IMG/VR virus record: IMGVR_UViG_3300037961_005511
Coordinates: 1 to 27,080 of that record
Origin: a virus
Reading direction: 5' to 3' (one strand)
Length of the DNA stretch: 27,080 nucleotides
Part shown: piece after piece, positions 9,047 through 25,667 of the stretch
Numbering within the stretch: position 1 is the first letter of the stretch
Layout of the letters: each line of letters opens with the position of its first letter
The notes under the pieces: generated by a model
The model's input: the letters and a program-made list of their open reading frames with translations, nothing else
The model's database searches: none
What the model was told of the DNA's origin: nothing
Program-made: the position numbers and the translations under genes

Positions 9047-9763
9047 ATGCCATTACCAAAGATTGCTACTCCAACATATGAGTTGGTATTGCCTTCATCA
9101 GGAAAGAAAATAAAGTATAGACCTTTTCTGGTAAAGGAAGAAAAGGTTCTCATCATTGCTATGGAAAGTGAAGATGAGAAACAAATTGCTCAAGCAGTTA
9201 CTGATGTTATCAAGAGTTGTATTGTAACTCGTGGTGTAAAGGTTGATGACCTTTCTACTTTTGATATCGAGTATCTCTTCCTCAACATTAGAGGTAAGTC
9301 AGTTGGTGAAGATGTTGAGGTTCTTATTACCTGCCCCGATGATGGAAAGACTCAAGTTCCTACTTTGATTAGTCTTGATGATATCAAGGTAATCAAATCG
9401 AAAGAGCACAAGAGAGATATCAAACTTGATACTGAACTCACTTTGAGAATGAAGTATCCATCAATGTCTGAGTTTATCAAAACTAACTTTAGTGGTGGTG
9501 AAGTATCTGTTGATGAGACCTTTGATCTTATCTCAGTCTGTATTGAACAAGTCTTCAATGAAGAAGAGTCTTGGACTGCCTCTGACTGCACCAAGAAAGA
9601 ACTGAGAGAGTTTTTGGAGCAACTTAGTTCTGCACAGTTCAAACAAATTGAGAAGTTCTTTGAGACGATGCCGAAACTTTCGCACACTGTGAAAGTTACT
9701 AATCCAAAGACTGGTGTTGATAATGAAGTTGTACTTGAGGGTCTAACAGCTTTTTTCGCGTAG
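9047..9763 (+). CDS. 26: gp26 baseplate hub / tail assembly chaperone, zero-frame product
   Basis: 238 residues (T4 gp26 has 208). T4 gp26 is needed for building the baseplate hub with gp51, and the family resembles tail-assembly chaperones. The N-terminus (PLPKIATPTYELVLPSSGKK) followed by IKYRPFLVKEEKVLIIAMES is the conserved opening of cyanophage gp26. The central part gives FDIEYLFLNIRGKSVGE, and the C-terminal part is helical and acidic (EQLSSAQFKQIEKFFETMPKL). The last codons GCT TTT TTC GCG TAG contain the slippery heptamer at 9751-9757 followed by a hairpin, so a fraction of ribosomes probably continues into the gp51 frame as a 300-residue fusion. Confidence 0.87.
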   Translation: MPLPKIATPTYELVLPSSGKKIKYRPFLVKEEKVLIIAMESEDEKQIAQAVTDVIKSCIVTRGVKVDDLSTFDIEYLFLNIRGKSVGEDVEVLITCPDDGKTQVPTLISLDDIKVIKSKEHKRDIKLDTELTLRMKYPSMSEFIKTNFSGGEVSVDETFDLISVCIEQVFNEEESWTASDCTKKELREFLEQLSSAQFKQIEKFFETMPKLSHTVKVTNPKTGVDNEVVLEGLTAFFA

Positions 9764-9794
9764 GTATGGCTCATGAAAACCTTGAGTCATACTT
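9751..9794 (+). promoter_or_regulatory. Predicted -1 programmed ribosomal frameshift signal joining gp26 to gp51
   Basis: Slippery heptamer T TTT TTC at 9751-9757, in the exact X XXY YYZ register of the gp26 frame, four nt before its TAG. A 12-bp hairpin (9762-9773 with 9783-9794, including two G-U pairs, 9-nt loop) starts 4-6 nt after it. After a -1 slip the frame reads TTT TTT CGC GTA GGT ATG and runs open through the gp51 gene to 9948. The hairpin also covers the gp51 ATG (9766), which has no properly spaced Shine-Dalgarno. Confidence 0.8.
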
Positions 9795-9948
9795 CAAAGT
9801 CAACTTTGCCTTGATGCAGCATCATAAATACTCACTAACAGAGCTTGAGAATATGATTCCGTGGGAGCGTGAAGTGTATCTCACATTCCTTCAACAATAT
9901 ATTGAAGAGGAAAATCTCAAAGCAAAACATGCGGAAATGAATGGCTAA
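9766..9948 (+). CDS. 51: gp51-like hub assembly catalyst, probably the C-terminal part of a frameshift fusion
   Basis: 60 residues if started at ATG 9766, far shorter than T4 gp51 (249). Cyanophage genes in this place are annotated gp51. The sequence is a small helical unit: LESYFKVNFALMQHHKYSLT, ELENMIPWEREVYLTFLQQY, then IEEENLKAKHAEMNG. The PWER-x-VY-x-x-L-x-x-Y-I-x-E-E pattern is what is usually seen in the frameshifted C-terminal part of tail-assembly chaperones. Its frame is -1 relative to gp26 and joined to it by a slippery site, giving a fusion with RVG ahead of the Met. Its own start lies in a hairpin. The stop overlaps the next gene by 8 nt. Confidence 0.75.
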   Translation: MAHENLESYFKVNFALMQHHKYSLTELENMIPWEREVYLTFLQQYIEEENLKAKHAEMNG

Positions 9949-11329
9949 CCTTCCTATCATTAGAAGACCTACAGTAAGGGTATCAAGTTTTTCTTTCTTG
10001 AATCGTCCTCAACTTCCTCCAAGGGAGGGAGTGGAGACTGCTAGGAATACTAATACGATAAGACAGCAGCAGCAAGCACTTGTAAATATTAATTCTGGGT
10101 TAGCAAGTTTAAGTCTTCAGTTACAAGCACTCAATCAGTCAATAACTGATATTAGCATCCAAATAAAAGGAGATGCTGTACTTGATGATATAAGAGAGCA
10201 AGAGAGACTTAAAAGAGAAAGAAGATTAGCAGAACAGAAAATAAGACAGGGTAAAGAAGGCACTATAGAAAGAAAGTTACAGGCTGTCCTTCAGAAACCA
10301 CTGCAGAAAATAGCAGCAAAAGCAAACTTCACTCTTGCTAAACTTGGACAGTTCTTTACTATCCTTCTGGGTGGTTTCTTAGCGAACAGAGCAATTCAAT
10401 TCATCAGTGCTCTAGCACAAGGAAATAAAGAAAAGTTAAAAGAGATAACTGATAAGATAGTAGGAGAGTTAGCACAGGTCGCTGCGCTATTTGTATTAAT
10501 TAATGGCGGTCTTAGTCTTGCACTTATTGGACTGTTAAGGTTTGCTGGATTTGTAACAAGATTTGCCGGTAGAAATCTCATTTCTCGTCCTTTTGGAGCT
10601 GCTTTAAGATTTCTTAGGAATAGAATAAATTTATTCAGAGGTCTTACACCAGGTGTTGGAGGAGCAGCTGGTGGTGGTTTCATGGAATTTTTAAAGAACG
10701 TGGTTAGAAACTTTAAAGCCTTTCCGACAGATAATTTAGGTGGAGGAACTACAACAACACGAGGATTAATTACTGGTTCGAATACAAACCCACCAGTAAC
10801 TAGACCTAATTTTAGTTTTGGGGGAATGTTTGCTAGTATGGGATTCGATACTATTTTAGGTAGACCCCTTGGTGAAACTGTATCTGGTAATGCTTTAGCA
10901 TCGGTAGGTACTCTTGCTCTTTCACCCCTTATAGCAAAACTTGCATTACCTGGTTTGATTGCAGGTGGTATAACAGTTGGTGCTTATATGGGGTTAAATG
11001 CCCTTGGTGGATTTCTTTTCAACCAAACAGGTCTTCAAAATACTGAGTTGGGTGGATTTAGGTTACAAACTCCTATTTCAGATTTTGTTGATGATTTTAT
11101 TGGTCGAAACTCGCAAAATATGCAGAGACAACAACTGATCAGTCAGCAACCAGATAACATGAACCCTGCTCCAGTTGTTATCAACAATAGTAGCACTGAT
11201 ACTTCTGCTGTTCAGCAGGCAAGTGCTGCTAACAATGGTAGTGCAACCAATATCCCATTTATTCCAAGTGGGAACCCTGCAAATTTCCATTTGTTATATT
11301 CTCAACTTCAGTATAACGTTGTCGGATGA
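9941..11329 (+). CDS. Tail structural protein, tape-measure candidate
   Basis: 462 residues, ATG 9941 overlapping the gp51 end by 8 nt. Basic, Pro-rich N-terminus, then a long coiled coil from about residue 40 to 130 (ALVNINSGLASLSLQLQALN, DIREQERLKRERRLAEQKIR). Hydrophobic segments follow at about 134-156 (LGQFFTILLGGFLANRAIQF), 177-206 and 318-360. The C-terminus is Asn/Gln/Ser-rich. Coiled coil plus membrane-active segments just downstream of the gp26/gp51 pair is how tape-measure proteins usually look and sit. T4 gp29 itself has 590 residues, and I see no direct sequence match. Inferred role: part of the tail's inner core or the tape measure. Confidence 0.6.
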   Translation: MANLPIIRRPTVRVSSFSFLNRPQLPPREGVETARNTNTIRQQQQALVNINSGLASLSLQLQALNQSITDISIQIKGDAVLDDIREQERLKRERRLAEQKIRQGKEGTIERKLQAVLQKPLQKIAAKANFTLAKLGQFFTILLGGFLANRAIQFISALAQGNKEKLKEITDKIVGELAQVAALFVLINGGLSLALIGLLRFAGFVTRFAGRNLISRPFGAALRFLRNRINLFRGLTPGVGGAAGGGFMEFLKNVVRNFKAFPTDNLGGGTTTTRGLITGSNTNPPVTRPNFSFGGMFASMGFDTILGRPLGETVSGNALASVGTLALSPLIAKLALPGLIAGGITVGAYMGLNALGGFLFNQTGLQNTELGGFRLQTPISDFVDDFIGRNSQNMQRQQLISQQPDNMNPAPVVINNSSTDTSAVQQASAANNGSATNIPFIPSGNPANFHLLYSQLQYNVVG

Positions 11330-12936
11330 ACTCACCTATTCTATCAAACATCACGAAAACATTAACTGGTCTTAAGTCAATTGCGTCTAAGACTCTAGAG
11401 TCATCGAAGACTCTGGGTAAAATTGTGGAAGATAATATTATAAAGAAGAAAAGAACTATATCTCGTTCAAGTATACTTGCAAGACGTAGAGCGGAGGCAA
11501 CAAAGAGGAAAGATAGAGAAGACTTGCTTGAAGCTTCTGGTGTTCGTGGTGTAGTAAGGCAGACTAAAAATGCAGTAGTAAGAAGTACCAAAGGTTTCTT
11601 AGGAAGAATAATGGACTTCCTCGGCACACTTTTGATAGGATGGGCATTAATTAACCTTCCAAAAATTATTAAGTTTGCTGAAGATCTTATCAAAAGAATG
11701 AGAGCATTTTTTGGAAGAATGAATCAAATTGTCACTGGTATTTTTGATATATTGGGTGGGTTTGGAACAATGTTAGGTGCTGTTTTTTCAAGCATCATTT
11801 CGTTTAACTTTGCTGCAGAAAAACCTAAGTTTCAATCCGCACTTCAACAGATAAACTTAGGTATTGATAAACTTACTAATAATGCTCAATCAGAAGTAAA
11901 CAAAGAAATTGCTCTTCATAATGAGTTTATGAGGGAAGTGGAGAAAGAGGATGAGATATTAAGACAACAATTAACTCCCGAAGAAACTCAAAGCACACAG
12001 ACTCAACCACAAACAGGTAATGCTAATGCTGGTGGTACAGCACCAACTAGTGCTGCAGATCAGTCTGGTGGTTTGGGAACACCAGACACACCTCCATCTC
12101 AACCTTCATCATCTGCTCCAAGTGCACCTTCAGTCTCTGGTGCAGCAACATTGTTTAGTGTAATATCAAGAGGTGAAGGTGGAGTAAACTCTGTTAATAG
12201 AGGAAATGCTGGTGATACTCCAGGTGGTGCTAAATCTATCTTCGGAAAAAATCTTACTGACATGACTGTTAGTGAGATTTACAACGCACAACAAAGTGGT
12301 CGGGTATTTGCAGTAGGTAAGTATCAGATAATTGATATTACGATGCCAGGTTTTATAAGTTACTTGAAGAGAAAAGGTGTTGATCCTGATACTACAAAAT
12401 TCACAGAAGGTGTTCAAGATTATTTCAAATCGTATGTTATAAATGAAAAGAGACCCATTGTTGGTAAATATCTACGTGGTGAAACTGATAATAAAGTAGA
12501 GGCGGCACAGGCACTTGCTAGAGAATTTGCTTCTATTGGTCTATCATATCCTGAAGCTGGAAGACAAAAAGGTCAATCAAGATACGCTGGAACAGGTAAT
12601 AATGCTGCGAGCATAAGTCCAGAGGAAATACAATCAGCACTTGAAAGATCTAGGTCAAAACGTTCAACTAAAACAAATCAAAGTAATTTACAGTCAAATA
12701 ATACGGGAAATAAATCATCAAACATTGCACAAAGTTTAAGTCCAAGTCCGATAAGAAGATCTAACTTAGCAGGTGGTAAACCAAAACCAAAAACTCAACT
12801 CATTGCCACTAATAATACTGTAACAAAGTTAGTTCCAGTCCCTGTTGGTAATGGAAACTCTAACAGTGGTCCTGCTCGTGTAAATAGTGGTGGAGCAACA
12901 TTACCAGATATTCAACTAACTTCACTAACGACATAA
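11326..12936 (+). CDS. Tail protein with hydrophobic segments and a lambda-R-type lysozyme domain
   Basis: 536 residues, start in an ATGA overlap. Residues 1-70 are very basic, and about 90-165 contain hydrophobic stretches (FLGRIMDFLGTLLIGWALIN, FGTMLGAVFSSIISF). Residues 165-215 are helical and 215-272 a Ser/Pro/Gln linker. Residues 274-422 look like the lambda endolysin fold (GH104): catalytic-type Glu284 in VISRGEGGVNS, the AVGKYQI signature at 329-335, and a closing LSYPEAGRQKGQSRYAG. The rest is a low-complexity tail. It would cut peptidoglycan during DNA entry, the job done in T4 by the lysozyme domain within gp5. It is also a second tape-measure candidate. Confidence 0.68.
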   Translation: MNSPILSNITKTLTGLKSIASKTLESSKTLGKIVEDNIIKKKRTISRSSILARRRAEATKRKDREDLLEASGVRGVVRQTKNAVVRSTKGFLGRIMDFLGTLLIGWALINLPKIIKFAEDLIKRMRAFFGRMNQIVTGIFDILGGFGTMLGAVFSSIISFNFAAEKPKFQSALQQINLGIDKLTNNAQSEVNKEIALHNEFMREVEKEDEILRQQLTPEETQSTQTQPQTGNANAGGTAPTSAADQSGGLGTPDTPPSQPSSSAPSAPSVSGAATLFSVISRGEGGVNSVNRGNAGDTPGGAKSIFGKNLTDMTVSEIYNAQQSGRVFAVGKYQIIDITMPGFISYLKRKGVDPDTTKFTEGVQDYFKSYVINEKRPIVGKYLRGETDNKVEAAQALAREFASIGLSYPEAGRQKGQSRYAGTGNNAASISPEEIQSALERSRSKRSTKTNQSNLQSNNTGNKSSNIAQSLSPSPIRRSNLAGGKPKPKTQLIATNNTVTKLVPVPVGNGNSNSGPARVNSGGATLPDIQLTSLTT

Positions 12937-12937
12937 A

Positions 12938-14263
12938 ATGCCAGCAGCGATAGATCCATCGATATATGAAGTAATTACATTAGAGTCTTCTGCAACTGGG
13001 AAGTCTATTGATGTAAGATTGGGTATTGTAAATATTCAATATTTTGAAGATGTATTTTCACCAACCATCACAATGAAGATGGCTATTGTGAACAGTGGTC
13101 CAACTATCAAAGATGAACAAGGAAAGTCACAATCAATATACTCTGGTCTTCCTCTAAGAGGTGGTGAGAGAGTAGCAGTAAAGATTACGAATAAAAGTGG
13201 CACACTTGACTTCACTACTCCTGAAAAATATTTCTATGTGTCAAGTATAAGTGGTATTTTAAGAGATGGTAAAAGAGAGTTCTTTACATTAGAGTTGTGT
13301 TCAAAAGAGGCAATCGCTAACGAGACAAGTGTCATCCAACGAAGGTTTTCAACCGACTTGAATATGATTGATAGTGTTAAGATTATTTTAGAAGACTATC
13401 TAAAAGTTGATCTTGCAGAGAAACCTCTGATTGCAGACAAGACAAAACACTCTTATGGTTTCATTGGTAATCTTAAAAAACCATTCAGCACTCTTGTTTG
13501 GTTAGCGTCAAAAGCAATGCCTGAACGAGGTCTTGCAGGGTTTTTCTTCTTTGAAACAAAGAGAGGTTTCAACTTCAGGTCTATCGACTCTCTCATCAAG
13601 AATGGAATTGATAGAGATGCAAAAAATAAAATTACTACCTATACTGAAATCAATGCATCTGACAATATAGCAAAGGACGACTTCAGGATTCTCAACTATA
13701 GTATTACGAGGAATAATGATTTACTTAAAAAGTTGAGATACGGGACGTTTGGAACAGTCTTTACGATGTTCAACCCATTAGATTATAGTTTCACTCCCGC
13801 ACCAAAAACACCTTTCAGCAGCACACAACGTCTTACAGAAGATGATGTAACCACATTAGGTGAAGAATATGTATCTCCAGAGATTAGAAATGATGCTGGG
13901 ATAAGTGTTCAGGATATTCCAACAAGAATCATTAGTGCAGTTTCTGATGTTGGTGCTGTTGAAAAAGATGCTAAAGATAGGAATATAAACGGTAGACCTG
14001 ATGAACATTATAAAGAGTCACTTTTGAGATATAACTTACTATTCACTCAGGTTCTCAACTTGACAGTGCCCCTCAATTTAACTCTATGTGCTGGTGATGT
14101 CATAAAATGTAAGTTCCAGAAAGTTTCGGAAATGAAAGATTTTGACCGTGAGCAAACGGGACTATATATGATTAAGGAAATATGCCATTCATTCGACCCA
14201 GAGAGGTCGGTGACATCAATGAAATTGGTTAGAGATACATTTGGTCAAGCATTCAAAGATTAA
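12938..14263 (+). CDS. gp27-like baseplate hub protein
   Basis: 441 residues (T4 gp27 has 391). Hub proteins of this type form a trimeric torus linking the tail tube to the spike. The N-terminal tube-like domain reads GKSIDVRLGIVNIQYFEDVF with SPTITMKMAIVNSGP and LRGGERVAVKI. A middle region with SYGFIGNLKKPFSTLVWLAS and FFFETKRGFNFRSIDSLI fits the D-like hub modules of gp27 and gpD proteins. The C-terminus has LTLCAGDVIKCKF and GLYMIKEICHSFDPER, the typical end of the second barrel. It starts one base after the preceding stop, and its stop overlaps the next ATG (TAATG), directly before the OB-fold spike gene as in T4-type hub cassettes. Confidence 0.78.
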   Translation: MPAAIDPSIYEVITLESSATGKSIDVRLGIVNIQYFEDVFSPTITMKMAIVNSGPTIKDEQGKSQSIYSGLPLRGGERVAVKITNKSGTLDFTTPEKYFYVSSISGILRDGKREFFTLELCSKEAIANETSVIQRRFSTDLNMIDSVKIILEDYLKVDLAEKPLIADKTKHSYGFIGNLKKPFSTLVWLASKAMPERGLAGFFFFETKRGFNFRSIDSLIKNGIDRDAKNKITTYTEINASDNIAKDDFRILNYSITRNNDLLKKLRYGTFGTVFTMFNPLDYSFTPAPKTPFSSTQRLTEDDVTTLGEEYVSPEIRNDAGISVQDIPTRIISAVSDVGAVEKDAKDRNINGRPDEHYKESLLRYNLLFTQVLNLTVPLNLTLCAGDVIKCKFQKVSEMKDFDREQTGLYMIKEICHSFDPERSVTSMKLVRDTFGQAFKD

Positions 14264-16287
14264 TGGATACAAATAACTTTTTCAAAAACCATTTTTTAGG
14301 CAGAGACGGGTTCATTTGGTGGATCGGTCAAGTTGCTAAAGAAGAGTCTTGGTCAAACCAAGCTGGTGATGGTTGGTGTAATAGAGTAAAAGTAAGAATA
14401 CAAGGGTATCATCCATACAGTGTTGAAGAACTTCCTGATGATGATCTTCCCTTTGCACATATTATGTTACCACCAACCGCTGGTACAGGTGGTGGTCAAT
14501 ATGCTGAAACTGCAATTTACCGTCAAGGTGATGTAGTCATTGGTTTCTTTATGGATGGAACTGATGCACAACAACCTGTTATCATGGGTTCTCTGGGCAA
14601 GTCAAGATATAAAGCTGTTGACAATAAGGAAAGACTTCCATTCACAGTATTTTCTGGGTTCAGTGAAAATATCAAACCTGCCTCTGGTGCCATTACTCCA
14701 AATGAGGTAAATGATAACTCAGAGGAAGCACAACCAACTAATGTATCTCAGTCTCCTACTCAAGCACAACAGAGAGGTAAAAAATCATTTAATTCCACTG
14801 ATGGTTTAGTTGATGCAAATCCTGAGTGTCACAAGAGTGCCATGGAGGGGACCGTAAATGAAATATCAACCACCATTGAAAACTTTATGACAACCATAAG
14901 GAATTTCAAGGCTAGTTTTGATGAAGGCACTGAGTTCTATAGGGATCTATTAAAAACTGAGATTGATTCTGTGACAGAGAAAATAAAAACCTGGTCATCA
15001 GGAATCATTGGACCAATGTCTGCTGGAACTTATGAAGGTTTGATACCAATATTCAAAGGTGGCATCAAGATGCTATATGATACTGTGTATGCTACTGTTC
15101 TTGCTGCTACTGGTCAACCACCTATAGCACACAAGGCAGGAGTTGCTGCACAAACAGCGATGGTAGGTCCAGTTCAGGCAGTCGAAGACCTATTCAAATG
15201 TATCGTAGGACAGATACAAGATAGAATAGTTGATGTTGTTAAAGGTATGCTTGAGTCAATCGTTGATAATGCCGTCAACTTTGTCGATTGCATGGTCGAT
15301 CAGTTTGTTGGTGGTATCATGAATGGTATCATTGATCAAATATCAGGGTTGATGAGTGGAGTTTTGGGTGGAGTCACAAAAATTCTTCAGTTCTTTGGCA
15401 ACTTTAGTGTTGACAATATGCTTAGAAATGGAATTGATACTCTTCTAGGTTTAATTGGATTCCAAGCATGTAATAAAAATGTCAAGAAAAACAAAGGTAA
15501 TTGTAAGTATATAATGGGTGTTGGTGAAGTTTCTCCAAACGACACTGACTTGGAAAGAATACTTGGAAATGCAAATGTTGCAAAGGCTGCATCTGTTGCA
15601 GCATCTGTTGCAGGGTTCCCTCTTGATGGTGTTCAGGATGTCGTTGGTGCTCTTGATATGTTTGACCCTAACTTCAAAGTCCCAGGTTTCCAGAGTGCTC
15701 TTGGGAGTTGTTATGGTGGAGTACCACAACTTTGTGGAGGACCAAAGATCAATATATTTGGTGGAAGAGGAAGTGGTGGTTCTGCTGTTCCATTACTTGG
15801 TAACATTGTTGGTTCAGGTTCATCGAGAACTGGTGGTATTATAAGTGTTAAGGTGACTGACCCTGGTAGTGATTATATGTTCCCACCTTTCGTTGAGGTT
15901 GTTGATGAGTGTGGACAGGGATATGGTGCACATGCTCATGCTATTATCAAAGATAATAAGATTGACTCCATTTATATTGTAAGTGAAGGAGAAAATTATC
16001 CAGTAGAGGAGGCACCTCCATTGTTTATTGATAATGTAACCATTGTCAATCCTGGCACTGGATACGATGATGATACTACTATCACAGATGATCTTGGAAA
16101 CGAATATGTTCCAACAATAATTGCTGGTTCTATCGTTAAGGTAACCCCAATAAATAATAAGGAAATAACTTCTATCCCCGTATTTAATATTATCGGCACA
16201 GGTGATGGTGCTCAGTTATCTGCAGTATTGACTGATGATGTGCCACCACAAGGAGAGGTTAAACAAGTTATCGACTGTGTTAGCTAA
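14263..16287 (+). CDS. gp5-like hub protein with OB fold but no lysozyme domain
   Basis: 674 residues. Residues 13-125 are the gp5/VgrG OB fold: IWWIGQVAKEESWSNQAGDG, VKVRIQGYHP, LPFAHIMLPPTAGTG, GDVVIGFFMDGTDAQQPVIMG. Then come a Gln/Ser linker, a long helical region (about 190-400) with amphipathic segments such as MLESIVDNAVNFVDCMVDQF, and a Gly-rich stretch. The C-terminal 150 residues are beta-rich with repeats of the V-x-[DN]-P-G-[ST]-x-Y type (VTDPGSDY, VNPGTGY). T4 gp5 has a lysozyme and a beta-helix after the OB fold. Here both are missing from this gene and appear in the flanking ones. TAATG overlaps at both ends. Confidence 0.78.
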   Translation: MDTNNFFKNHFLGRDGFIWWIGQVAKEESWSNQAGDGWCNRVKVRIQGYHPYSVEELPDDDLPFAHIMLPPTAGTGGGQYAETAIYRQGDVVIGFFMDGTDAQQPVIMGSLGKSRYKAVDNKERLPFTVFSGFSENIKPASGAITPNEVNDNSEEAQPTNVSQSPTQAQQRGKKSFNSTDGLVDANPECHKSAMEGTVNEISTTIENFMTTIRNFKASFDEGTEFYRDLLKTEIDSVTEKIKTWSSGIIGPMSAGTYEGLIPIFKGGIKMLYDTVYATVLAATGQPPIAHKAGVAAQTAMVGPVQAVEDLFKCIVGQIQDRIVDVVKGMLESIVDNAVNFVDCMVDQFVGGIMNGIIDQISGLMSGVLGGVTKILQFFGNFSVDNMLRNGIDTLLGLIGFQACNKNVKKNKGNCKYIMGVGEVSPNDTDLERILGNANVAKAASVAASVAGFPLDGVQDVVGALDMFDPNFKVPGFQSALGSCYGGVPQLCGGPKINIFGGRGSGGSAVPLLGNIVGSGSSRTGGIISVKVTDPGSDYMFPPFVEVVDECGQGYGAHAHAIIKDNKIDSIYIVSEGENYPVEEAPPLFIDNVTIVNPGTGYDDDTTITDDLGNEYVPTIIAGSIVKVTPINNKEITSIPVFNIIGTGDGAQLSAVLTDDVPPQGEVKQVIDCVS

Positions 16288-16850
16288 TGGCAAAAGAAAA
16301 TTGGTTGCGAAGATATTATAAAATTTGTGGATCTTTTTGGAGACAAATAATTAACGATCCAACCATTGGTGCTGGTGGTGCTGCAGTATCATCCACTATG
16401 AGTGTTGCTGATAGTGGAAGTAAGTTTTCTATCGTTCATCGTCAAGATGGAAGGGCACAGATTAACTGTGATAATATGATAGAAATGGTTGCTGGTGGTG
16501 CTAGACCAGAGGAAGAAGGATGTGATATTATGATCAAGTCCATTAAGGGCAATATTGAAATAAAATGTGATAAGAATGGTAATGTTATTATCAAAGGCAC
16601 AGATGTATATGTGAAAGCTGGTGGAGATCTGGATTTAGATGCTGGTGATACCATCAGAATGTATGCTGAAAATAGAATACATATCAAAGCACCAGTTCTT
16701 GATGTTGATGGTATTAGTGGTTCTGGTATTCCTAAAGAACTTCATTTTACATCGAGATCATTTGAAGGTTCTTTTGTTGGCGATGATGTTATATCAAAAT
16801 CAGTTAACGCTGCTAAGTTAGGAAAACCAACCTTGAAAGTAGGTTTCTAA
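16287..16850 (+). CDS. Beta-helix needle protein, gp5 C-terminal-like
   Basis: 187 residues, start overlapping the gp5-like stop (TAATG). The N-terminus is a short helical and basic part (NWLRRYYKICGSFWRQI), then a Ser/Thr/Gly linker. Residues about 65-150 are a run of 8-residue units with alternating small and beta-branched residues (GNVIIKGT, DVYVKAGG, DLDLDAGD, TIRMYAEN, RIHIKAPV), the pattern of the triple-stranded beta-helix needle of T4 gp5 and VgrG proteins. The C-terminus is a short cap. It probably trimerises into the membrane-puncturing needle on the tip of the gp5-like OB ring. Confidence 0.72.
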   Translation: MAKENWLRRYYKICGSFWRQIINDPTIGAGGAAVSSTMSVADSGSKFSIVHRQDGRAQINCDNMIEMVAGGARPEEEGCDIMIKSIKGNIEIKCDKNGNVIIKGTDVYVKAGGDLDLDAGDTIRMYAENRIHIKAPVLDVDGISGSGIPKELHFTSRSFEGSFVGDDVISKSVNAAKLGKPTLKVGF

Positions 16851-16854
16851 AAAT

Positions 16855-19800
16855 ATGGCAAGACAAGATCCAGATCCTAATGTAAATCCTAATATAACAG
16901 GTCAGGAGTCCTGGTTCAATAGTGATGCAAGATTTTATGAAGATGTATACATCTACGGAGATCTGTATCTAGAAGACTTAGATGTTGATGGACAAACTGA
17001 GTTAAATAACCTGAATGTAGCAGGTATATCCACACTCAAGGATTCTATCACAACTGGCATTGCTACCTTTAGAGGTGATGTCTTTATTGATAAACCACTT
17101 GATAACCTTCAGGTTGGTATTCTCACAACAACAGATAGATTTTATGTTGGTGAGAACAGGGACATTTCGATGTTTGGTAGCGGTCCTAGGCAGGGTCGCG
17201 TTGGTATCGGCACCACACAACCTGATAGGTTAATTGATGTTGCTGGTGATATCAAGATTGACCAGAACATCTATGACTCTGATAACAATCCAGGTCAAGA
17301 TGGATTTTTCTTATCAAGAGATATCAATGGTATCCGCTGGGTTCAAGCTGCTCCAGATGCCTTAACTGATGGTTTCTTTGTAAAGAACGAAGGTGTCAAT
17401 GTTGGTGTAGGTTCATTCACCATAATGAACTTCATCGGTACACGCTCTGGTGGAGATCTTGTCAATGCTACGGTAAACCCCAGCAACCCTCTACAGGTTG
17501 ATGTTGATATTATCGATCATTGGGTAAAGACAAATGCTGGTATTCATACCACAGTCAATGTTGGTATTAATATCAACAACCCCACTGTTCCTCTTGATGT
17601 AAATGGTCAGGCTCTGTTTAGGGGAGAAGTTGAGTTTGAAAGAGAAGTATTCATCGATAGTGGTCTGATCGTATCAGGTTTTGCCACAGGAACTATCTCT
17701 ACCGCTAGAATAGCAGGTTTTGCTCTTACGGCTGGTATTGCTACCTTTACACCTACTGCTGGTTTTGCACTCACGGCAGGAATCGCTACCATCGCTGGGT
17801 TTGCCCAGACTGCTGGTATTGCAACCTTCACACCCACTGCTGGTTTTGCCCTTACCGCTGGTATCTCTACCTTTGCTATTAAGGCAGGTATTGTTACTTT
17901 CGCAGAGATAGCAGGATACTCAACATTCTCTGGTTTATCTACAAGTGCTGGATTTGCTCAGACTGCTGGTATTGCTACATTCGCTAACCGTGCAGGATTT
18001 GCCCAGACTGCCGGTATCTCTACGTTCGCAAGAACTGCTGGTTTTGCTCTTACTGCTGGTATCTCTACGTTCGCAAGAACTGCTGGTATTGGAACAACTG
18101 CCCTGAATATTAGAACTGTTCAAACAACCAGTGATCAGTTTTTCTTCTTACCATTTGTTGAAAACTCTACAAGCACAGATGGTGAGATATTAAGAGTTGA
18201 CCCTGGTATCAGATATAACTCATTTAGAAACTCTGTAGAAATAGATGGTGACTTAGATGTTGATGGTGTATCAGAACTGGACACCACCAATATTTCTGAA
18301 AATTTAAACGTTGTTGGTCTCGCAACTTTTGGTGGAATCACGACAGTCACAGGTCCAACACTGTTCACTAAACAATTAAACGTATCTGGACCTTCTACCT
18401 TCTCTGGTTCCGTAGACCTTGATGGTCCTGTATTTGATATCAATGATAGTGCAGGTGTAGGCAAGACTGACTATCGCTTGGCTACTGTAGGTACTGGTGT
18501 ATCTTGGAGACCACCAGGTGTTCAGACAAAGAATATTCTATACGTTACCAAAGATGGTAGTGATAATAATACAGGTTTACTTGAGGGTGATGCTAAAGCA
18601 ACTATCGGAGGTGCTTGTGAAGCAGCACAAGATGGTGATACCATCTATGTAAGACCAGGTGTGTATTTTGAGAATAATCCTGTTGGAATGAGAACTGACG
18701 TTTCTATCACTGGTCAGGATCTTAGACTTGTTACTGTCGTTCCACGTAATCCAGGAGATGATATCTTCCACGTAAGAAGAGGATGTCTGGTTGAGAACTT
18801 GAACTTTGCTGCTGAAACCTTTGGTGTTGACCACGCACCAGGTGGTTGTGTTGCATTCCCACCGACATCAGAAGGTGTTCTTGCTGGTGTTACCAGTGCC
18901 AGAAGTGGATATATTGGACTTGGACCTATCAACGAAGGACCAAGTGGAAGGTGGAGGTCACCATATGTAAGAAACTGCACCAACTTTATCACCGGTAGTG
19001 TTGGTATGAGAATCGATGGAAACTTTGCCATCGCAAACTACACAGGAACAAATAACTTAGGTCAAGACCTTCGCAGTATGGTCTGCGACTCATTCACTCA
19101 ATACAATGAGGCGGGTATTGGTGTCTCCATCACCAATAAAGGATACGCTCAGTTGGTTTCTATCTTCACTATCAACTGCGATATTGCTATCTTCTGTGCT
19201 TCTGGTGGACAATGTGACCTTACAAACTCAAACTCATCATTTGGTAATGTTGGTCTGATGGCTGACGGCACCAGTAATGCAGAGTTTACTGGAGTCACAA
19301 CCACCTCAGTCATCGCTGGAGTTGATACCTTTGAGTTTGATGATGTAAGAGATGAGTTCAATAATCCCAGAAAACCATTTGATGGTCAGGGTTGTTTCTT
19401 CAAGGTAGACCTTGCAGACTACAATGATGTTGGCGGTGCTACAGGTATTGTTACACAACCAATGAGAACTCTCCGTAGAGTCGAGATAACAAATGGTGGT
19501 TCTGGATATACTGTTGGAGCTCCACCTAACGTTCTTATTGATACTCCACAAGGACCAGAGTCAATCGTTGCAGAACTATCTGCTAATGTAAGTGCTGCAG
19601 GAACCATTAGTTCTGTAGATATCATTGCAAGTGGTAGAAACTTCCTCCCCAACCAACCAATGAATATCACCTTCTCTGAAGGTAATGCTGTTGCGATTGC
19701 TGTCACTGATCCTATCCTGTTTACTGTTGATACTGCAACAGAACCAACAACTGCTGGACTCACTACAGTTACATTCAATGAGTTTATTCCATACTCTGTA

Positions 19801-21096: not shown

Positions 21097-23160
21097 ATGG
21101 CAGAACAAAGAAAACCGACGCAGCGATATTTAAGTGGTAGAACGAAGGTTACATCCTTCGCAGGACTCCATACTGACCGCCATCTATATGTTCATCCTGG
21201 TGAAGTAGAACCCAACCTTGGTTATCCAGGTGAAAAAAGCATACCAATTTCAAATACTTACTACCGTCTTGTAACTATTGACGGTGCTGGTCCTTATGAT
21301 AGATACTGGCAGGCTATTCCCCCTGCTACTCTTGTTAGTGGTATCAGTATTTTTGATGAAGGAAATCTTGTTGGAACAGCAAATAGTATATCAAAGATAG
21401 ATTTTGTTGGTGCAGCAATATCTGCTACAGCAAGTGGTTCTATTTCCACCGTTACTGTTCAGGTTGTTTCTATATCCACTGCCGCACCTGCTGGATCAAA
21501 GCATGGTGATCTTTGGTGGGACAGTGATGAAGGTGAACTCAATGTTTATTATAACGATGGTAACTCATCTCAGTGGGTCTTAGCAAACAGTGGTATTAGT
21601 TCTGGTCCGCAAGGTGGTGGTGGATCTGGCACTGGTGCTAATGTAACTATATCATCTAGTCCACCATCAAATCCAAATGATGGTGACCTTTGGTGGGATG
21701 AAGATATTGGTGAACTATTCATTTACTATGATGATGCTTCTGGTATTCCATCTGCTCAATGGGTTGAAGCATCGTCTGGTTCAAACACTGTAAACATATC
21801 CGATAGTGCTCCACCTTCACCAAATAATGGTGACCTCTGGTGGGAAAGTGACACTGGAACACTAAAAATATATTATCAAGACGCTGACGGTGCACAATGG
21901 GTTGACTCCAACTCTGGTATTCTCCAGAATATGGTCAACTACTGGCAACCAAATTTTCTTGGTATCCATACTGCTGGTAACGTTGGGATAGGAACAACAT
22001 TAGCAACAGACAAACTTTTTGTTGGCGGTAATGTCAATATTACTGGTGTTGTTACTGCTGCTAGTTTTTATGGTGATGGTTCCAATCTAACTGGAGTCGG
22101 AGGAACTGTAGCTATATCTACAACTGCTCCCTCTGCTCCTGATGTTGGTGACCTCTGGTGGGATAGTGACACTGGTAAGTTAGCAATTTATTATCAGGAT
22201 ATTAATTCATCACAATGGGTTACTGCATCAGGTAACTCTGGACCAACTGGTCCTGCTGGTGCTCAAGGTGCTGCTGGTGCAGCAGGTGCTCAAGGTGCTC
22301 AAGGTGCAGCAGGTGCCGCTGGTGCTCAGGGTGCAGCAGGTGCCGCTGGTGCTCAGGGTGATCAAGGACTTACGGGTGCTCAAGGCAATCCTGGTGCAGC
22401 AGGTGCCCAAGGTGCAACAGGTTCTGGAGCACAGGGTGATCAAGGACTTACAGGTGCCCAAGGTGCTGCTGGTTCAACTGGAGCACAAGGTGCAACAGGT
22501 TCTGGAGCACAAGGAGCGGCAGGTGCCCAAGGTAATAATGGTGCTCAAGGTGCCACTGGTTCAACTGGTGCTCAAGGTGCTCAAGGACATCAGGGAAATA
22601 CTGGTTCCACAGGCGCTCAAGGTGGTACTGGAGGGACAGGTGCACAAGGATCTCAGGGGCATCAGGGAAATACTGGGTCAACTGGTGCTCAGGGTGGACT
22701 ATCAACATATGCTGTTCCACAAGGTTTTATAGGTCTATGGTCTGGAGCAGCAAATGCTATTCCAAGTGGTTGGGTATTATGTAATGGTTCTAATGGAACT
22801 CCAGATTTAAGAGATAGATTTGTCGTTGGTGCTGGTAGTGGATATTCTGTTGGTGCTACTGGTGGTAGTGCTAATGCAACACTTGTATCTCACAGTCATG
22901 GTAGTGGAACGCTTAGTGCTGCCGATCACACTCACAATTTCAAAGCATCGAACAGAGCGGGTGATGAAGATGCTTGGAGTAATACTAATAAAGCATTTAT
23001 TGGTGACTTAGATAATGCGGCTTTTACACAGTCTGGCACTAATAAAATATATGGTTCTGGTTCTTTAAGCGTCTCAGGATCAACCGCATCTCAAGGTTCA
23101 TCTGCAACTAATGCTAACTTACCTCCATATTATGCTTTGTGTTATATCATGAAGACCTAA
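21097..23160 (+). CDS. Collagen-like tail fibre with phage tail collar domain
   Basis: 687 residues. The N-terminus ([20 protein letters not shown]) is the probable attachment part. Four copies of a ~40-residue module with [16 protein letters not shown]-like cores and SSQWV endings lie between about 126 and 380 (cores near 137, 195, 243 and 350). A fibre segment with VGIGTT and [16 protein letters not shown] follows module three. Residues 381-535 are collagen-like Gly-X-Y, mostly GAQ and GAA. The end (about 545-687) is a phage tail collar domain: [37 protein letters not shown], and closing [13 protein letters not shown]. This looks like a trimeric fibre with a C-terminal receptor-binding or trimerising tip. 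Confidence 0.82.
22240..22705 (+). repeat. 9-bp-phased collagen repeat (Gly-Ala-Gln type)
   Basis: About 50 Gly-X-Y triplets, dominated by GAQ and GAA with some GDQ, GST and GNT. The triplets use many near-identical GGTGCTCAA-type 9-mers, so the DNA is a periodic repeat. Gln usually occupies the Y position and proline is rare. Confidence 0.85.
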
Positions 23161-23166
23161 TAAATA
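23159..23166 (+). promoter_or_regulatory. Possible late promoter AATAAATA
   Basis: AATAAATA, 7 of 8 to the T4 late box TATAAATA, overlapping the previous stop and 15 nt before the ATG at 23182. The spacing to the start is shorter than for the CTAAATA copies. Confidence 0.35.
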
Positions 23167-23181
23167 TTCAAAAAATAGATA

Positions 23182-24639
23182 ATGGCAGGTATAGATTTTC
23201 CAAGTAATCCTAACGTTAACCAACAGCATACTGCTTTTGGTAATGTATGGTTTTGGAATGGAGAATCTTGGAGAAAAGCAGGACCAATACAAACACAAGG
23301 AGCACAAGGTAACGCAGGAACACCAGGTGCTCAAGGTCATCAAGGTGTAACTGGTTCAGGAGCACAAGGTGCTGCAGGTGCTCAAGGTGATAATGGTGCT
23401 CAGGGTGCTATTGGAACTCAAGGAGCACAGGGTCATCAAGGGTTTCAAGGCACCACTGGAGCACAAGGTGTTCAAGGTCAAGTAGGTGGTGGTGCTAGTA
23501 TTACATCACAAGCAAACCCACCAACTGGAGCTAACGATGGTGACCTTTGGTGGGATAGTGATGAAGGACCATTACTTCTTTATTATAATGACGGTAACTC
23601 ATCTCAATGGGTTGATATATCAACTGGACCAATGGGTGCACAAGGTGCACAAGGAACGCAAGGTTCTAGAAATAACTTAGAGGTTTCTGAGAACGCTCCA
23701 TCATCACCCAGTGCTGGTGACTTATGGTGGGAAAGTGATACGGGAATATTATCAGTTTATTATGATGATGGAGTTGGATCACCATCTTCACAATGGGTAG
23801 AAATTGGTGCTGGACCAACAGGTGCTCAAGGTGCATCTGGTGCTCAAGGTGCTCAAGGAACTCAGGGCACTGCTGGTGCACAAGGTTCTCAAGGCAATCA
23901 GGGTCTTGCTGGTGCACAAGGTAATGATGGTGCTCAAGGGGACAACGGTGCTCAAGGCTCACAGGGGCATCAAGGTCACCAAGGTCATCAAGGTCATCAG
24001 GGAGATCAAGGTCTTACGGGAGCACAGGGTAACGTTGGTGCTCAAGGCGATGATGGTGCACAAGGTTCTCAAGGAAATCAAGGAACACCAGGAACTAATG
24101 CTGGTCAAGGTGCTCAAGGTTCTCAAGGACATCAAGGAAGTGTAGGTGCACAAGGTGATGATGGAGCTCAAGGTGCTCAGGGTCATCAGGGACATCAAGG
24201 TCATCAAGGACATCAAGGTCATCAAGGACATCAAGGACATCAGGGTCATCAAGGAACACCAGGAACTAATGCTGGTCAAGGTGCACAAGGTGATACTGGT
24301 GCTCAAGGTGCTCAAGGACATCAGGGACAAAATGGAACTAATGCTGGTCAAGGTGCTCAGGGTCACCAAGGTCATCAGGGTCATCAAGGAACACCAGGAA
24401 CTAATGCTGGTCAAGGTGCTCAAGGTGCTGTTGGTGCACAAGGCGATACAGGTGCCCAGGGTGCAAATGGAACATCATCAGTTACAGTTACTCAAACAAA
24501 TTATGGTGGAACAGATCCAATTACAGAGTCTGGTTCTACTATAACTATTGGAACTGCTAGTAATGCTTATGGTAGAAAAACTGTTTCTACGAGTAATCCT
24601 AGTGGTGGTAATAACGGAGATATTTGGTATAAGGTATAA
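23182..24639 (+). CDS. Collagen-like tail fibre rich in Gly-His-Gln
   Basis: 485 residues. The N-terminus IDFPSNPNVNQQHTAFGNVW followed by FWNGESWRKAG is the short FPSNP/W module also found at the start of the gene at 26555. Then come a collagen-like stretch (about 38-98), two GDLWW-type modules (about 103-144 and 165-208) like those in the previous gene, and a long collagen-like region (about 210-450) full of GAQ and GHQ triplets, including eight GHQ in a row, with three GTPGTNAGQGAQG blocks. The C-terminus ends NNGDIWYKV, resembling a half GDLWW module. Its stop overlaps the next start (TAATG). Probably a trimeric side fibre. Confidence 0.82.
   Translation: MAGIDFPSNPNVNQQHTAFGNVWFWNGESWRKAGPIQTQGAQGNAGTPGAQGHQGVTGSGAQGAAGAQGDNGAQGAIGTQGAQGHQGFQGTTGAQGVQGQVGGGASITSQANPPTGANDGDLWWDSDEGPLLLYYNDGNSSQWVDISTGPMGAQGAQGTQGSRNNLEVSENAPSSPSAGDLWWESDTGILSVYYDDGVGSPSSQWVEIGAGPTGAQGASGAQGAQGTQGTAGAQGSQGNQGLAGAQGNDGAQGDNGAQGSQGHQGHQGHQGHQGDQGLTGAQGNVGAQGDDGAQGSQGNQGTPGTNAGQGAQGSQGHQGSVGAQGDDGAQGAQGHQGHQGHQGHQGHQGHQGHQGHQGTPGTNAGQGAQGDTGAQGAQGHQGQNGTNAGQGAQGHQGHQGHQGTPGTNAGQGAQGAVGAQGDTGAQGANGTSSVTVTQTNYGGTDPITESGSTITIGTASNAYGRKTVSTSNPSGGNNGDIWYKV
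23815..24475 (+). repeat. Long Gly-X-Gln repeat with GHQ runs and 32-bp direct repeats
   Basis: About 75 Gly-X-Y triplets. Eight consecutive GHQ triplets occupy 24181-24252 and four occupy 23968-24003. Three identical 32-bp segments at 24082-24113, 24253-24284 and 24388-24419 encode GTPGTNAGQG. A shortened relative is near 24332. Confidence 0.85.
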
Positions 24640-25667
24640 TGTCTTTACATGTAAATGATGGTGGAACGTGGAAAGAAGTTCAGAACTTATCTGTTCATGA
24701 TGGAGGTTCTTGGAAAGATGTTGCTCAGGCTTGGATAAAAGATGGTGGAGAGTGGAAAATATTTTATCCACCAGAGTCTGGTTATGGATGGTTTGGTGGA
24801 AATTTTGACTACTCAGCAAACGGTTTGAATCATGTGCAAAGAAAAGATTTTACTACAGACTCAAATAACTTTGCATCAAGAACATCACTTCCCTCTGGTA
24901 GAGGACAAAATGCTGCTGCGGGTAATGTAAACTTTGGATACTATTGTGGTGGTGTTGATGGGTCTTTTAACTCTCAAGATGATATGTTTAGAATACAATT
25001 TTCCAATGACTCTGCTACTCCAAGCAATAGAGGCAACTTGAATCAAAACAAGTCTGCATTTGCTGGTGTATCTGATGAGAAACTAGCATTCTTCCTTGGT
25101 GGAAATAATACTGTTGCAAAACTAACATTTTCCAGTGATACTTCAACAAGCACCTTTACAGTTTCTTGGACAAACAGATCGTTTTTGAGTGCAGTTAATA
25201 GTCCAACCAATGGATATTTTGGTGGAGGATATGTTTCCTCAAATACTTGGACTAGACAAATAACAAAAATACAATTTACAAATAACACTAGTAGTAATTT
25301 GACTGGTCAACTATCAGAACAAAGAGATAGTACGGGTTCTGTAGAGAGTCGCACCAGAGGATATTGGTGTGGTGGATATACAAATGATGCTGCAACTGCA
25401 AATAGTGATAGAGTTGACAGACTTGAGTTTTCAAATGATACTATGTCTAGTCTTGGTGATATTATGCCAGATGCTATTGGTCAGTCTGGTGGTGTATCAA
25501 ATGATAGTAGAGGGTTTATTTGTGGTGGAAGAACAAATGGATTTGGTCCTGGTCAGGTAACAACGGTAAGAAGACTGTTGTTTTCTAATGAAACGATGAC
25601 ATCATCATCTCAAGGTGCGTTAAATAATGCAGGGGTATCCCTTGCTGGTCATGAAGGTATTACATGA
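24639..25667 (+). CDS. Predicted beta-propeller tail adhesin
   Basis: 342 residues. Three N-terminal 14-15-residue repeats, LHVNDGGTWKEVQN, LSVHDGGSWKDVAQ and AWIKDGGEWKIFYP (residues 3-46), form a small attachment module. From about residue 48 on come five or six imperfect blade-like repeats, each with an FGG or CGG turn (YGWFGGNF, GYYCGGV, AFFLGGN, GYFGGGY, GYWCGGY, GFICGGR) followed by an R-[IL]-x-FSNDT strand. The layout resembles a Kelch-like beta-propeller. It has no enzymatic motif; binding a host surface glycan or protein is the likely job. It starts in a TAATG overlap with the collagen-like gene, and its stop overlaps the next start (ATGA). Confidence 0.72.
   Translation: MSLHVNDGGTWKEVQNLSVHDGGSWKDVAQAWIKDGGEWKIFYPPESGYGWFGGNFDYSANGLNHVQRKDFTTDSNNFASRTSLPSGRGQNAAAGNVNFGYYCGGVDGSFNSQDDMFRIQFSNDSATPSNRGNLNQNKSAFAGVSDEKLAFFLGGNNTVAKLTFSSDTSTSTFTVSWTNRSFLSAVNSPTNGYFGGGYVSSNTWTRQITKIQFTNNTSSNLTGQLSEQRDSTGSVESRTRGYWCGGYTNDAATANSDRVDRLEFSNDTMSSLGDIMPDAIGQSGGVSNDSRGFICGGRTNGFGPGQVTTVRRLLFSNETMTSSSQGALNNAGVSLAGHEGIT

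Follow-up and report, generated by a model that had tools for sequence, protein, structure and literature searches.

Spikes of the VgrG and P2 gpV/Mu gp45 types join an enzyme-free OB base and a beta-helical needle in one chain. T4 gp5 harbors an OB fold, a lysozyme of the T4 lysozyme (T4L) type, and a needle in a single chain that is cleaved at Ser351/Ala352 (PMC3004832). In Anabaena phage A-1(L), which is not T4-like, wall-cutting domains lie off the spike: the hub protein gp15 itself bears lysozyme, endoglucanase, and peptidase domains, and the spike consists of an OB and a beta part (PMC10966104). Peptidoglycan hydrolase domains are also known on tape-measure proteins, e.g., those of enterococcal phages (PMC10194240). 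For T4-like cyanophages, the tape measure has been reported to be unidentifiable, and gp5 has been linked to cell-wall degradation (PMC7029224). The DNA analyzed here (the window) comprises the first 27,080 bases of the 29,657-base virus record IMGVR_UViG_3300037961_005511 and stems from a Kyanoviridae-type T4-like phage. Its hub cassette is probably best explained by an enzyme-free hub-spike and a separate needle, together with a pair of tape-measure-like tail-lumen proteins that deliver an exchangeable wall-cutting domain. The division of the parts among genes, the relation of the enzyme to lambda R, and the exchange of the enzyme are established at the level of sequence.

The window follows the gene order of T4-like cyanophages, with thyX- and phoH-like genes, a single-strand binding protein, gp53, gp48, gp4, the tail tube, gp26, gp51, GC13, GC14, gp27, gp5, the needle, and fibers. 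The gene run of P-SSM2 is nearly identical, and the hub part has the same order (gp26, (gp51), GC13, GC14, gp27, gp5, needle) in P-SSM2, S-SRM01, and S-CAM7; the cassettes of S-SKS1 and ACG-2014f also count among the closest systems (Kyanoviridae and relatives). Almost all relatives of the window gp27 and gp5 come from Synechococcus and Prochlorococcus phages. The slot names GC13 and GC14 are taken from the “T4-GC” numbers of the P-SSM2 record, and the position of the slot between gp51 and gp27 is fixed across loci. Related loci were gathered by alignment scans on gp5 and needle similarity (a single-sequence scan gave one contig), and counts of loci therefore apply to this selected group and not to all Kyanoviridae. 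The features of the cassette are as follows.

9047-9763, + strand: gp26 baseplate hub protein, which opens the conserved cassette (Pfam T4_baseplate, E 3e-75; phrog_150).
9766-9948, + strand: gp51 hub assembly catalyst (phrog_634, E 7e-26).
9941-11329, + strand: GC13 slot protein, 462 residues, first of the paralogous pair, tape-measure-like (synteny, paralogy to GC14, identity profile).
11326-12936, + strand: GC14 slot protein, 536 residues, second of the pair and predicted lysozyme carrier (phrog_37890, E 4e-72; synteny, paralogy).
12148-12663, + strand: predicted lambda-R-like lysozyme domain, GC14 residues 275-446 (Glu284 codon at 12175-12177, GKYQI at 12316-12330).
12938-14263, + strand: gp27 homologue, hub (phrog_350, E 1e-89; gp27 position in isolates).
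14263-16287, + strand: gp5 homologue, 674 residues, predicted to lack a lysozyme (profile, AlphaFold2, Foldseek, Pfam).
14314-14595, + strand: gp5 OB fold, residues 18-111 (AlphaFold2 strands; hhalign to the T4 gp5 OB domain).
14839-15474, + strand: predicted gp5 long-helix region, residues 193-404, at the place of the T4 gp5 lysozyme (AlphaFold2; common to other Kyanoviridae gp5 proteins).
15745-16233, + strand: predicted beta-rich C-terminal domain of gp5, residues 495-657, a possible dock for the needle (AlphaFold2).
16287-16850, + strand: likely needle protein, 187 residues, with its own gene; beta-helix repeats at about residues 62-150 (16470-16736) (periodicity, DUF2345, AlphaFold2, synteny).

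The first-pass annotation had described this region as T4 gp5 split into three genes. Its reading frames and coordinates hold, E284 and GKYQI (331-335) of the 536-residue protein were verified from the DNA, and three parts do lie in three genes. However, the enzyme is lambda-R-like and not of the T4L/gp5 type, and thus no part of T4 gp5. Relatives generally have the same arrangement, which is not special to the window phage.

As judged from model and sequence comparisons, the gp5 chain contains no lysozyme domain and carries a helical region in its stead. When the gp5 family profile is compared with T4 gp5, the alignment is confined to the OB domain (residues 17-115 vs. 8-104 of T4 gp5; hhalign 92%, E 6e-7), which agrees with the earlier claim that an OB fold opens the 674-residue protein. 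A PDB search with the single sequence gave no match. The AlphaFold2 model, built on an 87-sequence alignment with a mean pLDDT (predicted local distance difference test) of 84.5, assigns residues 18-111 to the OB strands, 193-404 to long helices, and 495-657 to a beta-rich end. Its sole Foldseek matches in the PDB below 1e-3 are six T4-type gp5 chains, with 1k28 at the top (E 8e-6), and no lysozyme-only structure is among the listed fold matches. A T4-lysozyme-like fold would draw the many T4 lysozyme entries of the PDB, and their absence speaks against a hidden lysozyme; none was found in residues 190-400, where the first-pass annotation had placed the decisive check of its claim that gp5 lacks the enzyme. 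Lysozyme Pfam models match none of 64 gp5 relatives, a subset of the full set, while Gp5_OB matches 43 of the 64; T4 gp5 itself, as a positive control under the same procedure, is matched by the OB, lysozyme, and both needle models. The OB part is thus homologous to that of T4 gp5 by profile, with the defining enzyme feature of a “gp5 tail lysozyme” missing. Many RefSeq records title such proteins “baseplate hub subunit and tail lysozyme”, and the word “lysozyme” in this name appears to be incorrect for the group sampled here.

Two further observations concern the gp5 chain. The helices found in place of the lysozyme (14839-15474) have no solved structural match, and their weak PHROG matches are to tape-measure families. 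Near the end of gp5 (15830-16250) lies a beta-rich repeat, PGSGY..PP..EI.D.C..GYGA, which seems to be present again in a 1085-residue fiber protein (19450-19720) as well as in further structural families of cyanophages.

The wall-cutting domain is found on GC14, two genes upstream of gp5, as the first-pass annotation had placed it. Residues ~275-446 are predicted to form a lambda-R-like lysozyme: a 29-sequence lysozyme-family profile matches lambda R over the G-x-YQ half (96.2%, E 2.3e-9), and a 7-sequence profile (lambda R, 37%) aligns the glutamate to the EG motif of lambda R and gives one weak partial match in the PDB (11mn, E 0.039). E284, Y333, and Q334 are unchanged across 7 relatives. 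As a single sequence, the window lysozyme matches neither PDB nor Pfam entries. The closest lysozyme to it is that of S-CAM7, at 63% identity.

Other members of the slot carry other enzymes. Among 76 GC14 proteins, a subset scanned with Pfam, the models matched are M23 (36), Phage_lysozyme2 (12), SLT_3 (6), SLT (6), VanY (4), M15_3 (3), Hydrolase_2 (3), glucosaminidase (2), T4L-type (1), and CHAP/Amidase_5 (1), with overlapping counts and with the lambda-R-like type invisible to Pfam. Some slot proteins have two domains, i.e., lysozyme and M23 in S-SRM01 and lysozyme and CHAP/Amidase_5 in S-CAM7, and the enzyme of S-SKS1 is a Phage_lysozyme2. Depositors' labels in single cases include “M23 family metallopeptidase”, “transglycosylase domain-containing”, “lambda lysozyme”, “endolysin”, and “NlpC/P60”. 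Sixteen loci (L025, L028, L034, L036, L114, L117, L132, and others) have a short GC14 of 360-440 residues, and no hydrolase was recognized in those of them that were scanned individually.

The exchange is most evident between phages that are otherwise nearly identical. The nearest relative of the window, locus L004, differs from it in the enzyme domain. In 150-nucleotide bins, the two are 86-100% identical across the flanks and across the gp27, gp5, and needle genes. Within the lysozyme domain (12150-12700), identity drops to ~0.6, and in the GC13 middle (10500-11150) it is 0.57-0.81; immediately after, it is back at 92-98%. Loci L154 and L159, with 98% identical gp5 and 99% identical needles, carry Phage_lysozyme2 and SLT_3, respectively. 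Among 41 close pairs, each made up of distinct loci, identity has a median of 0.97 for gp26 and gp27, 0.99 for the gp5 OB fold, 0.94 for the needle, and 0.93 for the GC14 N-terminus, as compared with 0.57 for the GC14 middle and 0.74 for the GC13 middle. Identity below 0.5 is seen for the GC14 middle in 20 of these pairs and for the needle in none; in 20 disjoint pairs the corresponding counts are 7 and 0. Metagenome chimeras could imitate single cases but are unlikely as a general cause because near-identical sequence resumes downstream and the pattern repeats across samples. That the wall-cutting domain is exchangeable among phages with near-identical gp5 and needle is well supported by these comparisons. 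On a larger scale, L106 and L099 differ over the whole gp26-gp27 block (0.24-0.78), with gp5 93% and the needle 100% identical. This block, with GC13 and GC14, looks swapped as one unit among phages that share their gp5 and needle (L106 vs. L099, L060).

GC13 and GC14 are distant paralogues by profile comparison, as their families have a 153-column N-terminal segment in common (hhalign 98.6%, E 1.4e-15). Their lengths co-vary from ~500 to ~1500 residues in 14 phages (Spearman 0.94; the phages are related, so that the p-value is not to be taken literally), whereas the same test against GC13 gives 0.25 for gp27 and 0.40 for gp5. S-N03 was left out, as the query used did not find gp27 in its record. 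Among 99 length pairs, most of which come from metagenomic loci, the GC13-GC14 correlation drops to 0.46. The slot-protein lengths also fall in exactly the same rank order as the tail lengths of the four phages compared, i.e., S-SRM01 (~100 nm), S-SZBM1 (~114 nm), S-CREM1 (~165 nm), and S-CREM2 (~418 nm). Three of the four are within ~20% of 0.15 nm per residue of GC13 or GC14, and S-CREM2 fits only for the summed lengths. A glycine-rich motif, typical of tape-measure proteins, occurs in the slot proteins of several relatives, and an HTVC008M protein near gp51 is annotated by its depositors as “putative tail tape measure”. Purified S-CREM2 virions contain both slot proteins (73 and 71 unique peptides), filed as lysis proteins, and gp27, gp5, and the products of the two genes that follow were likewise detected (PMC10665884). 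On the basis of its N-terminal paralogy to GC13, its conserved ends, and an enzyme that changes independently of gp5 and the needle, GC14 looks more like a tail-lumen protein of the tape-measure type than a spike component.

Two observations on S-CREM2 stand apart. Its slot proteins gp208-gp209 (L178, 6484-15555) seem to be multi-enzyme, with endolysin/chitinase-like parts in gp208 and, in gp209, a lambda-R-like domain and a second one of endolysin type, and they also have glycine-rich tape-measure-type motifs. The length of gp124 (2668 residues, which at 0.15 nm each gives ~400 nm) made it a candidate tape measure of this phage; it was set aside as beta-rich, devoid of hydrophobic segments, and assigned to phrog_358, although composition alone is not exclusionary.

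The needle is, as far as the sequences allow, well supported as the product of its own gene. It is a separate open reading frame in 159 of 163 loci, with a start in 134 of them that overlaps the gp5 stop or lies at most 2 nucleotides from it (in the window, the two frames have one base in common), and the needle profile matches no gp5 frame. The frequency of the separate frame indicates that the split is old. It is not universal, as P-RSM6 has a 910-residue gp5 with needle-like repeats at its end (by eye) and no same-family needle frame after it. In S-CAM1 (L185, 12629-13576), a 315-residue gene downstream of gp5 is annotated as “putative baseplate lysozyme”. With a needle in its own gene, the OB hub and the needle must come together as separate subunits.

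The 187-residue protein is likely, with good confidence, to be a trimeric beta-helix needle. Its 8-residue periodicity is significant (lag-8 autocorrelation, p 0.005), 68% of 73 relatives have their autocorrelation maximum at lag 8 or 16, and the VgrG-type DUF2345 model matches 40 of the 73. At residues 62-150, AlphaFold2 confidently predicts an extended chain that makes no hydrogen bonds to itself, which fits one strand of an intertwined trimer. A PDB search with the single sequence gave chance-level matches only. Foldseek returned E-values that are all >0.1, with the AlgoCIS spike and T4 gp5 in the top ranks and VgrG, the Mu spike, and the R2 pyocin spike below. Of the earlier claim of a needle with its own gene, the separate frame thus stands, and the beta-helix fold is supported but not proven.

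In the preferred explanation, trimers of gp27 and gp5 would form the hub, and the 187-residue protein would trimerize into a beta-helix docked end-on under the beta-rich end of gp5 to pierce the outer membrane. GC13 and GC14 would lie in the tail tube atop the hub in tape-measure fashion. Upon contraction, the needle would detach and the slot proteins would be released to the periplasm, where the enzyme domain of the slot protein would open the peptidoglycan for DNA passage. Wall cutting would follow puncturing and could be retuned to the host peptidoglycan with the spike untouched. More tentatively, GC13 and GC14 may constitute a two-protein tape measure that shares the tube, either as a mixed side-by-side bundle or end to end, jointly setting tail length and serving as an ejectable rack for swappable wall-cutting enzymes above the enzyme-free hub and separate needle.

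The cassette resembles the gp5-gp27 device of T4 (1K28) in its gp27 hub, gp5 OB fold, and octapeptide-repeat needle below, and differs from T4 gp5 in the lack of a lysozyme on gp5, the separate needle gene, and the lambda-R-like enzyme on another protein. It is similar to VgrG and the P2 gpV/Mu gp45-type spikes in having an enzyme-free OB base and a needle whose family matches the VgrG DUF2345, but its OB fold and needle are encoded by two genes. As in A-1(L), the wall-cutting domains are off the spike; in A-1(L) they are on the hub protein itself. As in the hydrolase-bearing tape measures (PMC10194240), a long tail protein would carry the entry hydrolase; the window type differs in being a paralogue pair with matched lengths, in its putative role in tail length, and in its lack of sequence relation to T4 gp29.

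Several points weigh against the proposed tape-measure-like delivery. The tube position of the slot proteins is inferred and is seen in no structure. Comparison of T4 gp29 with GC13 detects no relation, the PHROG tape-measure matches are weak or arise via the hydrolase domains, and the glycine-rich motif is absent from the window's own GC13 and GC14. The 418-nm tail of S-CREM2 exceeds the reach of either slot protein alone as one helix. The smaller S-SZBM1 proteome lists gp27 and neither slot protein, and a recognized hydrolase is missing from the slot in some relatives, including P-SSM2 (L001, 6191-7741).

The foremost alternative, though unlikely, is that the lysozyme protein joins the OB hub and the needle as a third subunit of a single puncturing device, the enzyme being bound to the hub or needle as in T4 gp5 or placed on the hub as in A-1(L), whose multi-enzyme hub offers a precedent (PMC10966104). 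All of the genes are adjacent in a single operon, and the divergence of the GC14 N-terminus parallels that of gp27 (r 0.95), but this correlation is driven by one divergent locus. The enzyme varies independently of gp5 and the needle, and its carrier, a GC13 paralogue whose length tracks that of GC13 up to ~1500 residues, is hard to fit on a spike. The first-pass annotation had likewise proposed a puncturing device assembled from separate subunits; this is borne out for the OB hub and the needle but not for the lysozyme as a third subunit, given its independent change and the paralogy of its carrier.

It is improbable that the 187-residue protein is some other small baseplate protein and that the spike ends in gp5 itself. 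Such a reading would account for the lack of significant Foldseek matches and for the weak profile match to the T4 needle (P 0.003, probability 10%); it is opposed by the 8-residue repeat, the DUF2345 matches, the AlphaFold2 signature, and the location directly behind gp5 in 159 loci. Slightly more doubtful still is the identification of the 536-residue protein as a late-lysis endolysin or an ejected head protein that lies in the hub operon by chance. Slot proteins of relatives have been annotated as endolysins, and the authors of the S-CREM2 study placed them in the lysis category, maybe inside the capsid. However, the position between gp51 and gp27 is constant, the protein is paralogous to GC13 with conserved ends around a changing enzyme, both slot proteins are in S-CREM2 virions, and S-CREM1 has another gene elsewhere annotated as lysozyme. 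An artefactual split of gp5 and needle has a negligible probability, for although the window is a metagenomic contig with reading frames that overlap by one base, the identical split is seen in 159 of 163 loci, as well as in isolates, which rule out a frameshift, and the ends of both proteins are conserved.

Elsewhere in the window, two fiber-like genes (22200-24640) contain long collagen-type GAQG/HQG repeats. Hydrolases on tape measures (PMC10194240) and enzyme-free spikes are already known. A paired, length-matched carrier with an exchangeable enzyme in T4-like phages, and the resulting misannotation, were not met with in the literature searched, of which the coverage was partial, and an earlier description is possible. 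The arrangement is widespread and misannotated, and T4-like cyanophages rank among the ocean's most abundant viruses. If the slot proteins do the wall cutting, many “tail lysozyme” annotations would be wrong, the entry enzyme and the likely tape measure of these phages would gain named, testable genes, and the exchange of wall enzymes between near-identical phages would become a trait measurable in metagenomes.

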